In this document: piece after piece, positions 23,871-32,729 of the stretch
How the letters are laid out: every line of letters starts with the position of its first letter
How positions within the stretch are numbered: position 1 is the stretch's first letter
DNA from: Muribaculaceae bacterium
Lineage (GTDB): Bacteria; Bacteroidota; Bacteroidia; Bacteroidales; Muribaculaceae
DNA length: 64,000 nucleotides
Reading direction: 5' to 3'
NCBI GenBank assembly: GCA_017621225.1
Contig: JAGATN010000037.1
Coordinates: forward strand, 62,001-126,000
Notes under the pieces: model-generated
What the model was told of the DNA's origin: nothing
Database searches by the model: none
What the model saw: only the letters and a program-made list of their open reading frames with translations
Program-made: the position numbers and the translations under genes

Positions 23871-24422
23871 TCATCGTCCTATTTTGCGCCCCATATAATA
23901 CGTGCTCCACGTATCCTTGGCATATCCGTCGCCAAGAACCTCAAAGCTGCTCTCGGAAGCGCCCTTTATCTTTGCGCCGCGATAATACACATTCCATGTA
24001 TCCTTGGCATATCCGTCGCCGAGAACCTTGAAGCGGCTCTCGGACGCACCCTTTATCTTTGCGCCGCGATAATACACGCTCCACGTATCCTTGGCATATC
24101 CGTCGCCAAGAACTTCAAAGCTGCTCTCGGACGCGCCTTTTATTTTCGCGCCGCGATAATACACGCTCCACGTATCTTTGGCATATCCTTGTTTAAGTAT
24201 CTTGAACGACGAAGCGTTAGCACCCTCAACCTTTCGTCCGTCGAAAAACACATCATAGTTGCCTATCACGTACTTTGGGCGGTGATGCCTCCGACCGCCG
24301 CGCTCGTCACGCATTTCACGCTTGCAATCGTCATCGTCGTACTGTCCGTTAGGAAATACGGTCGACGATGAAAAGATCAGCGACAATAGCAGCGCCATCG
24401 ATATTATGATTCCTGATTTCAT
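23871..24422 (-). CDS. DKNYY-repeat secreted protein
   Basis: 183 residues from the ATG at 24422. A longer frame starts at a TTG (24446) that falls on the promoter -7 element, so I reject it. A signal peptide (GIIISMALLLSLIFSSS) precedes a charged linker and four to five 29-residue repeats (YAKDTWSVYYRGAKIKG, then ASESSFEVLGDG), the DKNYY-family motif. The repeats are nearly identical at protein and DNA level. The function is unknown; it leads an envelope operon and its promoter carries a Crp-type palindrome. Confidence 0.8.
   Translation of the reverse strand: MKSGIIISMALLLSLIFSSSTVFPNGQYDDDDCKREMRDERGGRRHHRPKYVIGNYDVFFDGRKVEGANASSFKILKQGYAKDTWSVYYRGAKIKGASESSFEVLGDGYAKDTWSVYYRGAKIKGASESRFKVLGDGYAKDTWNVYYRGAKIKGASESSFEVLGDGYAKDTWSTYYMGRKIGR
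23874..24260 (-). repeat. 87-bp tandem repeats inside the DKNYY gene
   Basis: Three full 87-bp units with partial units at both ends. Copies differ by few bases, for example Ser/Asn and Ser/Arg changes. Such near identity allows gain or loss of units by slippage or recombination, so length may vary between strains. Confidence 0.9.
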
Positions 24423-24443
24423 AGTTTTCCTTTTTATACATTG

Positions 24444-24488
24444 CAAATATACTGTTTTATAACTTTATGGACTGTGACATTTGTCACA
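24444..24488 (-). promoter_or_regulatory. Promoter with Crp-type palindrome (DKNYY operon)
   Basis: On the minus strand a perfect palindrome TGTGACATTTGTCACA (24473-24488), identical in form to the enterobacterial CRP consensus TGTGA-N6-TCACA, lies 21 nt before TATATTTG (plus 24444-24451). There is no -33 TTTG, so activator-dependent transcription is likely. A Crp/Fnr-family gene lies 370 bp upstream on the same strand and is the obvious candidate regulator, by inference. Confidence 0.7.
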
Positions 24489-24608: not shown

Positions 24609-24772
24609 AGAGTATGTTTACTTTTAACTTTATGAAATCTTTAGAGGTCTTTCAGGTCTGTTTGGCGATTTCATTCAGTCGTTATGGCACCCCATAACTC
24701 CTTCACTCAATCTCCAAACATAATCTGAAATTCTATCTAAATCTTATCATAAGCCAAAAGTAAACATACTCT
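24609..24772 (-). repeat. Hairpin repeat family A, copy 1
   Basis: A 164-bp element with terminal inverted repeats AGAGTATGTTTACTTTT at both ends and a central palindrome (GTTATGG/CCATAAC). Nearly the whole length can fold into one imperfect hairpin. It is about 90 percent identical to copy 2 (28793-28956), lying in the opposite orientation. It encodes no protein. It occupies most of the gap between the DKNYY promoter and the Crp/Fnr gene. MITE-like by structure. Confidence 0.8.
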
Positions 24773-24856
24773 AAACAATAGACGCAATAACCTGCAATAA
24801 ATTACATCGTTTTTCACATTTAACATTCCGGCGAGCCGCAATAAGCTGACAAACCG

Positions 24857-25411
24857 TCACGAATTGCTTTTGCGAAAACGATAGAGCTGCCGGCGCGATA
24901 TGTTTAGATACGAAGCAATGTCGTCAACCGTCAGCAGATCGAATATGCGAGGACATCGCCCCAACAGCCTTTTATATCGCATTTCGGGCGTGAATCGATA
25001 ATTATCGAGGGCATTTATGTAAGCCTGATCAAACAATGCCTGAAGCAAAGTGGCGTTAAGTGAGGCATCTTCCACAAAATGGTCACGCATCAGCGACGCC
25101 GGCACCTCATATACCTCCGAATAATCCAACGCTATCACATCTACGGGCATGGCACGTCCAAGCATCACGCTCATATAATTGGCCAATATGGAGTCGCCGA
25201 ATACGAATCCCACGCTTTTCATGCATCCATGGTCATCGATGAGCGAATGTTTGAACCCGCCGCTAACCACCCAGCCAACCGATTTGAGCAATTGACCGGA
25301 ATGCGCAAAATATTCACCTTTGGCATATCGGCGCAACACCCCGTTGCGCATGCACACTTCGCGCCACTGCGAGAAATCAAATTCGACTTCAAACGTATTA
25401 AATCTATTCAT
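24857..25411 (-). CDS. Crp/Fnr-family transcription regulator
   Basis: 184 residues. The N-terminal cyclic-nucleotide-binding-like domain shows YAKGEYFAHSGQLLKSVGWVVSGGFK and later FVFGDSILANYMSV. The long dimer helix region is AYINALDNYRF. The C-terminus carries a helix-turn-helix (TVDDIASYLNISRRQLYRFRK). Bacteroidetes members of this length often lack cAMP-contacting residues, and the effector cannot be predicted. Two palindromes of Crp type within 5 kb are candidate targets. Confidence 0.85.
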   Translation of the reverse strand: MNRFNTFEVEFDFSQWREVCMRNGVLRRYAKGEYFAHSGQLLKSVGWVVSGGFKHSLIDDHGCMKSVGFVFGDSILANYMSVMLGRAMPVDVIALDYSEVYEVPASLMRDHFVEDASLNATLLQALFDQAYINALDNYRFTPEMRYKRLLGRCPRIFDLLTVDDIASYLNISRRQLYRFRKSNS

Positions 25412-25540
25412 ACTCCACCTTATGGATGCTTATGGCCGTCATTTCCGACCGCCCGCACTATACATACATTTCATCCTCACCACGGCCCTTGCTAAGGATA
25501 TGTCATTACGCAAAAAACGTGAGCCAACTATGCCACGTCT

Positions 25541-25706
25541 AAGGAACTGTTTGAATTTATTTGTCGAAGGAATTGAGAGGATTTGTCAAGTAGATTTTTG
25601 ATATTTATGAAGGAGTTATGGGGGCCCATAATGACTGAATAAATATCAACAAGATGCTGACAAAGACCTCAATGACAAGACTAAATAAATTTTTAAACAG
25701 TTTCTT
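25541..25706 (+). repeat. Hairpin repeat family B, copy 1
   Basis: About 166 bp, ends AACTGTTTGAATTTATTT and AAATTTTTAAACAGTTT in inverted orientation. Internal pairing includes TTTGATATTTAT with ATAAATATCA and GAGGATTTGTCA with TGACAAAGACCTC, so the whole element folds as one hairpin. The centre (GGAGTTATGG, then CCATAATGACTGAAT) is shared with family A. A second copy is at 28628-28792. Non-coding. Confidence 0.8.
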
Positions 25707-25717
25707 AATTTGAAGGT

Positions 25718-25819
25718 CGTAGGAAAAACCATTTTGCACAGATGTAACAATAGCAACCCACGCTGTTACGCGTGAGAACCACTATGCTATCTCTCGCACA
25801 TGTTTGTGAATTTCCTACG
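25718..25819. other. Structured intergenic element flanked by CGTAGGAAA inverted repeat
   Basis: Perfect 9-bp arms CGTAGGAAA (25718-25726) and TTTCCTACG (25811-25819) enclose about 84 bp with an internal CACGC/GCGTG stem. It begins 11 bp after hairpin element B1. No ORF and no clear promoter. Together with B1 it explains most of the 540-bp gap at 25412-25951. It could be a small RNA, a further repeat family or an element remnant. Confidence 0.4.
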
Positions 25820-25951
25820 TTCTCAAACTACAAGATAGGCATAACGTTTCTTCTTTAATTCCAATATGTCGACCGATAGTCCGCGACTATCGCCGTGGCA
25901 AAGATAAAACATTTTTCGCATTACCGCATAACGGCACGTGAAATATAAAGC

Positions 25952-27397
25952 CTAATCGCCGTCGGCCACCTTCGTGGCGGGAAGTGCAAATACGAATTCC
26001 AACCCTTTCGTCGCGGAATCCTGCACCATTATATATCCACCCATGGCGTTGATTATTCTCCGCACGAGAGGCAATCCCAGTCCGGCACCGCCATTTTTAC
26101 GCGAACGCCCGTAATCCACTCTATAAAACAGATCGAAAAGCCTGTCGCGATGTTCGCCGTCAACTCCTATGCCATTGTCGGCGAAAGAGAACAACAGCAA
26201 TTCGCCCTCTCGCCGTAGCCGGCGCAACGATATCTGCGTTCCACCCGAATGTTGGGCGGAGTTATATATCAGATTAAGCATGGCATTGGTAAGCAACGAT
26301 TCGTGGCCTTCCACGCAACAATCGTCGGGCACATCGAGCACGAACGTCATCTCGTCGGCAATATGACCTTGCTTGACATCCTCCATGAGCTGAACCATCA
26401 TATCGTGAAAATTGATGGTCGACGTCTTCACCATGCCTTTGTTTTCCTGAAGACGCATTACCATCGACACGTCATTTATAATGGTGGTGAGGCGATCGGT
26501 GTTTTGCTGTGCGCGCAAAAGAAATTTGTTTCTAAGCTCGTCAGGCATATCCTTTGAGTCGAGCACGGTATCAATGTACCCCTTTACTATGCCTACCGGG
26601 GTGTTGAGTTCGTGACTTATGTTCATCACTATCTGACGTTCGTAATACCACTTCTCCTGTTCGGCATGAATCTTGTCGCGATATAGCGTAAGCAGATTCT
26701 TCGACACGTCGCCAAGCTCATCTTTCGAAAAATTCAGGGAATCAATGTCGTCGGGCAGATTGTCGGATGAAACGGCCCGTGCAAAATCTCTCAGCGTGTA
26801 CACATTTCGGCAAACGGCCATTGCACCGAAATAGGCCAGTACCGACGAAACCAATCCAAGCGCTATCACCACTATCCACACCATGGGGTCGATGCTTAAA
26901 AAGTCTGTCACCTCCCCTTCATAAGGCAATGCGGCAAACGAATAAATCTTATTGTCAGGACTTTTCTTTGAGCTGATCATACTTTTTTCGTCGTTATGAA
27001 CCACATCCTTTACCGCTTGCTGACCGCTCTCCTTGAGCAATTTATTATACTCCGAATTGACCTCGCCGTTGCTGTCGTAAAACGGTATAGTGACGGCCGG
27101 ATTGTCGGCAACCATATTGCCAACGCTGTCATAAACCGTAATGCGCAATGGCGCAAGAGTAGTGTTGTCGGTAAACAGACGAATAAAATCGACCGTCTTT
27201 TGCAAATCCACGCCACGTTCGTAAGCATCAATCACCGTGTTGTTGACATTGAGCAATCGGTTTTCGAGATTCTCTTTTTGCCGCTGCTTCTCATGCTCCA
27301 CAAAGTGAACTATGGTTATGCCTATTATGAGCCACAACAATCCTATGAATGGTAAAAATAGTTTCCAATGCAACTTTAATATGTGTTTATCAGACAT
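25952..27397 (-). CDS. Membrane sensor histidine kinase
   Basis: 481 residues. A first membrane helix (about 13-32), a periplasmic sensor loop (33-170), a second helix (171-195), a HAMP-like linker (YTLRDFARAVSSDNLPDD...KDELGDVSKNLL), the HisKA box NISHELNTP (phospho-acceptor His262) and HATPase boxes NLIYNSAQHSGG, FADNGIGV and GGAGLGLPLVRRI. No response regulator is adjacent, so it is an orphan here. A 246-bp gap upstream (27398-27643) shows nothing further. Confidence 0.9.
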   Translation of the reverse strand: MSDKHILKLHWKLFLPFIGLLWLIIGITIVHFVEHEKQRQKENLENRLLNVNNTVIDAYERGVDLQKTVDFIRLFTDNTTLAPLRITVYDSVGNMVADNPAVTIPFYDSNGEVNSEYNKLLKESGQQAVKDVVHNDEKSMISSKKSPDNKIYSFAALPYEGEVTDFLSIDPMVWIVVIALGLVSSVLAYFGAMAVCRNVYTLRDFARAVSSDNLPDDIDSLNFSKDELGDVSKNLLTLYRDKIHAEQEKWYYERQIVMNISHELNTPVGIVKGYIDTVLDSKDMPDELRNKFLLRAQQNTDRLTTIINDVSMVMRLQENKGMVKTSTINFHDMMVQLMEDVKQGHIADEMTFVLDVPDDCCVEGHESLLTNAMLNLIYNSAQHSGGTQISLRRLRREGELLLFSFADNGIGVDGEHRDRLFDLFYRVDYGRSRKNGGAGLGLPLVRRIINAMGGYIMVQDSATKGLEFVFALPATKVADGD

Positions 27398-27643
27398 AGA
27401 ATTGACCTTTTATTAATTACACACTCCACACATTTATTCATTAGTTACGTATATGCCTCTCTACTTCATAAGTCTCGCAGAATTAAATAAGTTGACGTTT
27501 CGTTTAATAAACAACAACTCAGCCCACACTTTAGTTTGCGTAACCTTATGATATGTCACAAATTGGAGCTTTACAACCGGCAGGCCATCACGCCAACCGC
27601 ACACCCTGCCCCATCAACCGTAAATCTCGATTTATATGTTTAC

Positions 27644-28099
27644 CTACTTTTTAGGGAACGTTTCAGAAATTTGCTTCGACACACGCTTAATGGCTTCTTT
27701 CAAATCTTTAGAATAGCTAAGCCCCAAGCCAAAAGCGCCTCGGCACGATGCTACCGGTCGACCTGTCATATAATCGATAAAGTTGACCGTAACTACAGCT
27801 TCTTCGGTTTGATTTATACCATACTTAACCAACAAAAGCCTATCACGTTGTTGCGATGTAAGTTCATTAATGCGAATGTCGCTGACCAACTGCAATCTTG
27901 AAGACTCAACCGCATCAAACAATTGAATCTCGTACTCCATCAGCTCTGCCGGAATACGATATGTGTTATTATTTATTATTGAGGCATACTCATATTTCGA
28001 CAAATCGACTCTATTGGAAACTGTCGATTTCGATGTGGTACAGGCTGAGAGCGCCATAATCACAACAACGATGAGAAAATATTTAATCCGACTAATCAT
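27644..28099 (-). CDS. Small lipoprotein, unknown function
   Basis: 151 residues with a lipobox (ALSACTTS, Cys20). The mature domain (TYRIPAELMEYEIQLFDAVESSRLQLVSD...VNFIDYMTGRPVASCRG) looks like a small alpha-beta periplasmic fold and has no known motif. A TACTTTTG -7 element lies upstream (plus 28143-28150), giving a separate transcript. The rest of the 28100-28348 gap shows nothing. Confidence 0.7.
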   Translation of the reverse strand: MISRIKYFLIVVVIMALSACTTSKSTVSNRVDLSKYEYASIINNNTYRIPAELMEYEIQLFDAVESSRLQLVSDIRINELTSQQRDRLLLVKYGINQTEEAVVTVNFIDYMTGRPVASCRGAFGLGLSYSKDLKEAIKRVSKQISETFPKK

Positions 28100-28348
28100 A
28101 CGAATGTGTTAATAGCTGATTCGACATTAAAATAAACACTCGCAAAAGTAATCAATTTTCCAAATCCGCACCATCCAACACCAAAAAATCTTCAGAAAAA
28201 ATCCGTAAAGACCCCGAGCTTTTATAGTTGATTAAACTTGTTCACAGCGTTTGCCATAATGCCATCCGCCATGCCAAAAGACTATCGAAATGAAAGTGCC
28301 CTGACAATTTCCATACGCTCATACCGGTATAGATGAAGATGACAGCCT

Positions 28349-28396
28349 AAAAAACAAGCGACTTAACTTAGTGATTTTTCACTTTGTTAAGTCGCT
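28349..28396 (-). terminator. Terminator downstream of tRNA-Leu
   Basis: Perfect 11-bp stem AGCGACTTAAC/GTTAAGTCGCT with an inner AGTGA/TCACT stem. On the minus strand it is followed by TTGTTTTTT, so it ends the tRNA transcript. Confidence 0.85.
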
Positions 28397-28403
28397 TTCG
28401 CGG

Positions 28404-28485
28404 TACCCAGACCCGGGATCGAACCGGGATGGATTGCTCCACTGGTGTTTGAGACCAGCGCGTCTACCGATTCCGCCATCTGGGC
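28404..28485 (-). tRNA. tRNA-Leu (anticodon CAA)
   Basis: On the minus strand the acceptor arms are GCCCAGA and TCTGGGT with discriminator A. The D-arm is GGCGGAATCGGTAGACGC, the anticodon stem-loop CTGGT-CTCAAAC-ACCAG (anticodon CAA), and the T-arm CCCGGTTCGATCCCGGG. A short variable arm (TGGAGCAATCCA) fits a class II leucine tRNA. No CCA is encoded (CCG follows). About 82 nt. Confidence 0.95.
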
Positions 28486-28496
28486 GTTTGCGGCTA

Positions 28497-28528
28497 CAAA
28501 GATAGGCATTGTTTACGAAGCGTGCAAA
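28497..28528 (-). promoter_or_regulatory. Promoter of tRNA-Leu
   Basis: On the minus strand: TTTG (plus 28525-28528), 20-nt spacer, TATCTTTG (plus 28497-28504), a full consensus match ending 11 bp before the tRNA. Confidence 0.85.
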
Positions 28529-28627
28529 CTTTTAATCTTTTTTTTGGCACCGATTGTGAAAGTTTAAAAAATTAAGCTATCCTTAAGCGTTAGTTCAAAG
28601 ATTTTTGCGTAAGTTTGCGTTATTCTC

Positions 28628-28792
28628 AGAAACGGTTTAAATTTATTTGTCGAAGGAATTGAGAGGATTTGTCAAGTAGATTTTTGATATTTATGAAGGA
28701 ATTATGGGATTCCATAATGACTGAATAAATATCAACAAGATGCTGACAAAGACCTCAATGACAAGACAAAATAAATTTTTAAACAGTTTCTC
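28628..28792 (+). repeat. Hairpin repeat family B, copy 2
   Basis: About 165 bp and nearly identical to copy 1 (25541-25706), same orientation. Differences cluster at the left end and in the centre, where GTTATGG...CCATAAT has become ATTATGG...CCATAAT and so forms a full A-T pair. It directly abuts family A copy 2, making a composite block of about 330 bp between tRNA-Leu and glgB. Confidence 0.8.
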
Positions 28793-28956
28793 AGAGTATG
28801 TTTATTTCTGGCTTATGTTAAGATTTAGAGAGAATTTCAGATTATGTTTGGAGATTGAGTGAGGGAGTTATGGGGTGCCATAACGACTGAATGAAATCTA
28901 CAAACAGAACTGAAAGGCCTCTAAAGTTTTCATAAAGTTAAAAATAAACATACTCT
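28793..28956 (+). repeat. Hairpin repeat family A, copy 2
   Basis: 164 bp, ends AGAGTATGTTTATTT and AAATAAACATACTCT. Compared with copy 1, a C in the left arm and the G that pairs with it in the right arm have both changed, to T and A, so pairing is preserved. It ends 41 bp before the glgB start and lies in its leader or promoter region. Confidence 0.8.
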
Positions 28957-32531: not shown

Positions 32532-32566
32532 AGAGTATGTTTACTTTTGGCTTATGTTAAGATTTA
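32532..32566 (+). repeat. Truncated family A hairpin element
   Basis: 35 bp identical or nearly so to the left end of the family A copies (AGAGTATGTTTACTTTTGG, then CTTATGTTAAGATTTA), then similarity stops abruptly. It is an end fragment. The rest of the 32392-32729 gap holds the SGNH gene leader, a TACATTTG -7-like element (32585-32592) and an AAGTAAC/GTTACTT long-range pair, with no supported gene. Confidence 0.75.
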
Positions 32567-32729
32567 AAATCTCACGATTTTTATCTACATTTGCGATTAA
32601 GTAACTCGCACAAATTAACTGATACATAATTATGAAGTCTCTCCATCGTGAAAAACGCCGAAAAGACGAATGAGGATGTGTCAGCCCATAGGGTTACTTG
32701 AGTTTTTTAATTATAACTAAGAGTTATTT

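Follow-up and report, generated by a model that had tools for sequence, protein, structure and literature searches.

Within a 64,000-nucleotide stretch of the genome of a Muribaculaceae bacterium (GenBank assembly GCA_017621225.1, contig JAGATN010000037.1, positions 62,001 to 126,000; hereafter the window) lie four copies of a 162-bp element belonging to two families, A and B, each built around a hairpin. We find that A and B are miniature inverted-repeat transposable elements (MITEs), that is, miniature non-autonomous transposons, and that selection acts on the single-strand shape of their hairpin, which has a fixed architecture and exchangeable base pairs. The hairpin is probably a mobile module and a structural cis-part of transposition. 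For the reading as a whole, namely MITEs mobilized by insertion sequences (ISs) of the IS5 family and carrying a shape-selected hairpin that acts in cis, our confidence stands somewhat above even.

The initial annotation described two hairpin-element families in four copies, with differing ends and a common core. All four copies are present, each 162 bp long once one or two extra flanking bases in the earlier coordinates are set aside. By blastn, A1 and A2 are 93.3% identical and B1 and B2 94.6%, and A can be aligned with B solely across the central 49-58 bp (79-84% identity), to which the similarity is thus confined. A core pattern allowing up to three mismatches matches the window four times (three exactly, once with one mismatch), where shuffled sequences lead one to expect 0.00. 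In all four elements the strand reading GGAG...GACTGA folds better than its complement; with short flanks included, the energies of the two strands are -73.0 and -58.0 kcal/mol for A1, -67.9 and -55.8 for A2, -68.8 and -46.0 for B1, and -67.4 and -51.9 for B2. The differences at the central pair and the paired change in the arms that had been described are seen in the A/B alignment and upheld in the wide alignments presented below. No open reading frame (ORF) lies inside the 162-bp elements, which are therefore not autonomous IS5 members but non-autonomous relatives.

The core recurs across the 2.53-Mb source genome, in which the pattern (<=3 mismatches) matched 46 times and the reversed pattern not once. 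A covariance model whose rows included A and B among others returned 57 matches at E<=1, 55 of them with E <1e-8, on 27 contigs; further copies are thus numerous, contrary to the scarcity that would have refuted the initial annotation. As a separate observation, 37 of the 46 core matches are forward and nine reverse on contigs of presumably arbitrary orientation, possibly an assembler effect, and the eight contig-edge copies are all forward.

Ends were sought for 44 of the 57 copies, namely 40 of families A and B and four of a third family, C; the other 13 comprise eight copies at contig ends, four hairpins of a family D and one chimera. Identical 3-bp flanks border 31 of the 40 A/B copies (TAA 15, TTA 12, TCA 3, TTG 1), 30 of the 31 being of the form TNA, and none of the four C copies, whose ends are assumed. 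The A copies measure 162-163 bp (n=14) and the B copies 154-164 bp (n=26). Only one of the 57 hairpin centres falls within an ORF of at least 100 codons, and such ORFs occupy 86% of the 815,355 bases examined. In eight of the 44 copies (e.g. L011, L014, L015, L073 and L076) a frame of 100 or more codons ends with the flanking TNA as its stop codon, and the insertion thereby restores the stop. At nine sites, L077, L078, L081, L060, L052 and L079 among them, an A end has been reduced to ~14 nt; seven of these remnants are flanked by two TNA triplets, which are the same triplet in five cases. Near-precise deletion by slippage across the hairpin would be expected to leave such a pattern.

This genome has at least four families of hairpin elements: besides A and B there are C (L302-L305) and D (L298 and L299, with two hairpins each). 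A and B are short (<~600 bp), non-coding, bounded by terminal inverted repeats (TIRs), flanked by a target-site duplication and dispersed in many copies. TIRs shared with a partner transposon are found for A (L288 and L286) and for D (L275), in other genomes. The proposal that these are non-autonomous mobile elements is borne out by the TNA flanks, by TIRs equal to those of IS5-family elements in related genomes and by the many dispersed intergenic copies. Two candidate autonomous arrangements were rejected: a full IS between A ends on contig C30, where a recA-like gene lies between the two ends, the right one being a deletion derivative, and an IS with two cores at L177, which consists of two separate B elements around other genes.

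Conservation of the fold was then assessed beyond the source genome. A general core (<=3 mismatches) has 184 distinct matches, a total that counts near-copies; their two free central pairs are TT/AA in 85, CA/TG in 47, CG/CG in 29, TA/TA in four and TG/CA in four, and the remaining 15 combinations pair incompletely. From 157 segments, 42 representatives below 80% identity were chosen and six dropped (two chance matches, four truncated or chimeric), leaving 36 rows. In a gap-free alignment anchored on the core, 80.5% of the paired positions form standard pairs, compared with 59% after shuffling (maximum of 500 shuffles, 62.2%) and 40-46% when the arms are slid against each other. A MAFFT alignment of the same rows gives 81.6%, compared with 59.7% shuffled and 39-47% slid, with none of 500 shuffles as high; covariation is 0.573 as against 0.208 shuffled, and changes on both sides occur in 33 of 37 pairs. 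The shuffles ignore relatedness among the rows, which the slides retain.

The patterns used to select rows fixed most core letters and required five of six apical pairs, and we therefore examined separately the 29 outer pairs, which are free of these selection criteria. In the 36 rows they are paired in 75.4% of cases compared with 52.0% after shuffling; the values are 74.0% and 52.1% with the four dropped real cores restored, 72.1% and 50.6% over all 42 rows, and 77.1% and 59.7% for the 14 MITE-type rows alone. Compensatory changes thus greatly exceed those in shuffled alignments, including at the outer pairs, and the covariance model and larger alignment recommended in the initial annotation agree with its suggestion that the hairpin itself is selected.

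Beneath the 7-bp apical stem lie two conserved tandem G.A steps, whose four columns are non-complementary in 36 of 36 rows. The search pattern contained most letters of these steps but not the GA at columns 47-48, whose two letters are present in 34 and 36 of the 36 rows. The apical stem is closed by G.U in 29 of 36 rows. With this closing pair excluded, G.T and G.A cells number 105 and 85 compared with 157 and 130 expected from the columns, and A.C and C.T cells 51 and 28 compared with 117 and 82, a stronger depletion. On the strength of this difference, the relevant strand is probably the one that reads GGAG.

The same hairpin occurs at the ends of larger, coding elements. Genome G007 contains ~1.12-kb IS5-family elements whose inverted ends, ~125 nt long, each include a core (L112 is flanked by TTA/TTA), and in the same genome the ISs L264 and L118 share ends of identical type with a 162-bp MITE, L255. 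When 247 genomes of the family Muribaculaceae were searched for the transposase, 32 had a match and 30 loci were returned. The covariance model, whose rows included L265, L267, L289 and L291, matched at both ends of seven loci (L264, L265, L267, L269, L270, L272 and L290), once at seven, weakly at one (L284, at the end of its stretch) and not at all at 15. The hairpins sit just inside the TIRs, ~30 nt from each IS end, and face inward. Those of L269 keep the same frame with different stems (CAATGC/GCATTG and CGTAGC/GCTACG); L268 is matched at just one of its ends, and the sole match at L289 falls in an adjacent MITE whose ends are B-type and whose core differs. In a transposase tree of 24 rows, for which four hairpin loci were too short, L265, L267, L268, L270 and L272 form one clade (99/97), distinct from two others, one with A-type ends (L107, L286 and L288) and one with D-type ends (L275 and L282). 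The model found no match at the IS5 genes of four plasmids from other taxa (L294-L297).

The initial annotation also proposed a search for a transposase with matching terminal repeats, and its outcome is mixed. The closer fit is to elements of related genomes: the IS5-family element L288 agrees with the A right end at 18 of 18 bases and with the A left end at 16 of 18, L286 agrees at 17 of 18 and 15 of 18, and L275 agrees with the family D end at 25 of 25. In the source genome, PF01609 has three matches: an intact gene on C41, and a broken one on C45 that is matched in two pieces. The intact gene matches NF033580 (IS5 family), PF13340 and PF01609, and its IS has a perfect 24-nt inverted end of which 14 of 18 bases agree with the B left end. 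A partner was therefore obtained for A in related genomes and not in the source genome, and searches for an exact partner IS for the B or C ends found none.

The hairpin is combined with many different ends. TIRs with identical 3-bp flanks were delimited in 65 of the 157 segments, mostly 160-164 bp long, a count that was aided by a score favouring identical flanks and of which a few are due to chance. Their end types include GAAACTG, GAGTATG, GAAGTTG, GAATCTG, GAGCCTG, GTAAGTC and others. A B-type end is combined with two different cores, and MITE families A and D unite the hairpin with the ends of hairpin-less IS5 elements. A and B are adjacent in another genus as well (L403). L250 (G169) is a chimera in which the left arm of one hairpin type and the right arm from an A-type MITE meet at the core, which suggests recombination there.

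As the initial annotation had proposed, the core was also sought in other genomes. The general core occurs in at least 108 genome stretches, the titles listed being mostly Bacteroidales together with three sphingomonads and one labelled Lachnoclostridium, and in 23 of the 247 genomes of the family Muribaculaceae, with a reversed-pattern control of 0 in all listed. The covariance model matched 20 of 24 chosen genomes at E<=1e-4, with up to 94 matches per genome; 12 of the 24 lacked a pattern match, and of these the model matched eight and found none in four. A phylum-wide model search of 296 genomes matched the source genome alone, under strict filters and with 13 candidates scored per genome (the source genome gave 13, not 57), and its result therefore carries little weight. 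The sphingomonad loci L148, L149 and L225, found by pattern search, pair their arms in the same frame and have visible inverted ends; their model scores of 52-58 bits are circular because these loci were model rows. In L148 and L225, from Sphingopyxis metagenome-assembled genomes, the hairpin lies inside elements that have inverted ends of their own as well as a second hairpin. A plasmid search with one sphingomonad element gave no match, so that no transposase is linked to these copies. Empty sites, another suggestion of the initial annotation, were sought to the right of A2, at a glucan-branching-enzyme-like gene (an identification made by eye): in nine relatives the model gave no match at this locus, and the spacers are too divergent, and some stretches too short, to define a precise empty site. 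In four of the nine, the stretch includes a tRNA-Leu.

How the hairpin might act can be outlined as follows. We predict that A and B are moved in trans by IS5-family DDE transposases acting on the TIRs (GAGTATGTTTAC... or GAAACTGTTTAAA...), and that transposition would duplicate a TNA target. Between the TIRs of the MITEs stands a single hairpin of ~100 nt, which recurs in a clade of larger IS5-family elements, ~30 nt in from either end. It would have a cis-acting role during transposition, near the ends and in the form of either a cruciform or a folded single strand, and the MITEs may retain it on account of this role. A cis-role is suggested because the hairpins are placed symmetrically at both IS ends and are retained in non-coding elements. 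A more specific version, to which we attach only tentative belief, regards the hairpin as a transferable cassette: a folded single strand read by its shape and by the two tandem G.A steps, the working end-part of one IS5-family clade, passed to MITEs with TIRs of other IS5 clades and present in a related form in sphingomonads.

Several results weigh against a cis-acting hairpin. The strongest is that L286, L288 and L275, which carry the A- and D-type ends, have no match to the hairpin model (some bases near L275 were masked), so that not all such transposases require the hairpin. The source genome yielded no intact IS bounded by A or B ends. A Pfam search, made for L107 only, saw no extra transposase domain, and the 57 copies have no significant strand bias relative to GC skew (23 of 57, p 0.18) or to coding direction (27 of 57, p 0.79). 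An orientation-dependent role was rejected: with this lack of strand bias, the neighbours of the 40 copies for which both were called are mixed in direction (opposite/opposite 15, same/opposite 9, same/same 8, opposite/same 8).

The main competing explanation, which we hold to be doubtful yet worth weighing, is that the hairpin works as RNA. At the IS it would lie in the leader of the transposase message, damping read-through expression or undergoing processing, and in the MITEs it would insulate or stabilize host transcripts and so lessen the harm of insertion. The frequent G.U closure of the apical stem and the restriction of good folding to the GGAG strand speak for such a function, as does one hairpin of L265, which lies in the sense orientation and ends 36 nt before the transposase ATG. 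The other hairpin of each such IS, however, lies at the opposite end in antisense, the gene-less MITEs keep the hairpin, and the source-genome copies show neither a significant coding-direction bias nor uniform neighbour directions. An Rfam search returned only sub-threshold matches on the hairpins, which correspond to no Rfam family.

We consider it improbable that the arms pair merely through homogenization by template switching (quasipalindrome correction), without selection on the fold. One clear event of this kind exists: the left hairpin of L299 (family D, C38:18700-19700) has become a perfect palindrome by natural template-switch correction. Homogenization of the arms would, however, erase the G.A mismatches, which persist in all 36 rows, and hairpins with different arms hold the same frame; correction alone is therefore disfavoured. 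Equally unlikely, in our estimation, is a passenger hairpin, in which the MITEs would be collapsed IS ends sharing the core by ancestry. The IS and MITE of G007 do have common ends and core, and the hairpin-bearing transposases form one clade, but ancestry explains neither the compensatory change at nearly every outer pair nor the joining of the hairpin to the ends of hairpin-less ISs. Repetitive extragenic palindromic (REP) units, in which GGAG is followed by a stem-loop, resemble the hairpin, and this resemblance was counted in favour of a REP-type element mobilized by a REP-associated tyrosine transposase (RAYT, a Y1 transposase). The TIRs and TNA flanks contradict this explanation, and we rejected it as extremely improbable: PF01797 has 0 matches in the genome (93.8% complete), and the control search was positive in five of 14 known genomes.

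Table 1. Elements, hairpins and related fragments located in the window.
Feature	Coordinates	Strand	Details	Basis
MITE A1	24610-24771	minus	162 bp; flanks TTA/TTA (own strand)	ends by reading; blastn vs A2
Conserved hairpin of A1	24639-24741	minus	82.2 bits	model R1
MITE B1	25543-25704	plus	162 bp; flanks TAA/TTA, non-identical	ends by reading
Conserved hairpin of B1	25572-25674	plus	83.8 bits	model R1
MITE B2	28629-28790	plus	162 bp; flanks TCA/TCA; adjoins A2	ends by reading
Conserved hairpin of B2	28658-28760	plus	81.7 bits	model R1
MITE A2	28794-28955	plus	162 bp; flanks TCA/TAA, non-identical	ends by reading
Conserved hairpin of A2	28824-28926	plus	85.3 bits	model R1
Left-end fragment of A element	32533-32566	plus	35 nt, 97.1% vs A1	blastn
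Family C element without central hairpin	32601-32727	plus	ends GTAACTC.../...GAGTTAT	by eye vs L302-L305

The covariance model has no match at the family C element listed in Table 1. Elsewhere in the window, the ORF at 23871-24446 (minus strand) contains near-identical repeats of the type GDGYAKDTWSVYYRGAKIKGASESSFEVL.

The ISs linked to A and B resemble the IS5 family (NF033580) in their TIRs (GA..NTGTTT), 3-bp TNA flanks and DDE transposase (PF13340 and PF01609), and we take them to belong to its IS1031-like, TNA-target group. They differ from the family at large in that one IS clade carries a conserved hairpin inside each end, and A and B differ in being non-coding. Bacterial MITEs moved in trans by ISs include RUP, Correia and the BrickBuilt elements of Porphyromonas gingivalis. 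Like these, A and B are short and intergenic, have TIRs and a target duplication, and fold as hairpins; unlike them, they possess an interior hairpin that is kept by compensatory change, contains fixed G.A steps and is common to several TIR families. The PINSR repeat of Prevotella intermedia, another dispersed, non-coding repeat of the Bacteroidales, is 188 bp long and, according to its authors, has no terminal inverted repeats (PMC4755523). A and B differ from it in having TIRs. Among the openly accessible papers that our searches listed, we recognized no description of hairpin-bearing IS5 elements or of such MITEs in Bacteroidales; subscription papers and ISfinder lay beyond the search.

Integron attC sites and the ends of IS200/IS605 elements are hairpins of mobile DNA whose shape is conserved and which are read in single-stranded form. 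The hairpin of A and B is tied instead to DDE transposases, with no integrase or Y1 transposase, and a single-strand reading of it is conjectural. The hairpins of MITEs are usually seen as a by-product of inverted ends, whereas here an interior shape is kept while nearly every outer pair changes, and a covariance model can detect tens of copies in a genome, for a hairpin that corresponds to no Rfam family. Because the hairpin recurs both in the ends of coding ISs and in MITEs with other ends, what reads the hairpin of a DDE transposon becomes a testable question. If the cis-acting reading is true, a DDE group thought to read double-stranded ends only would own a part that is read by structure, following a logic like that of attC sites and IS200/IS605 ends.

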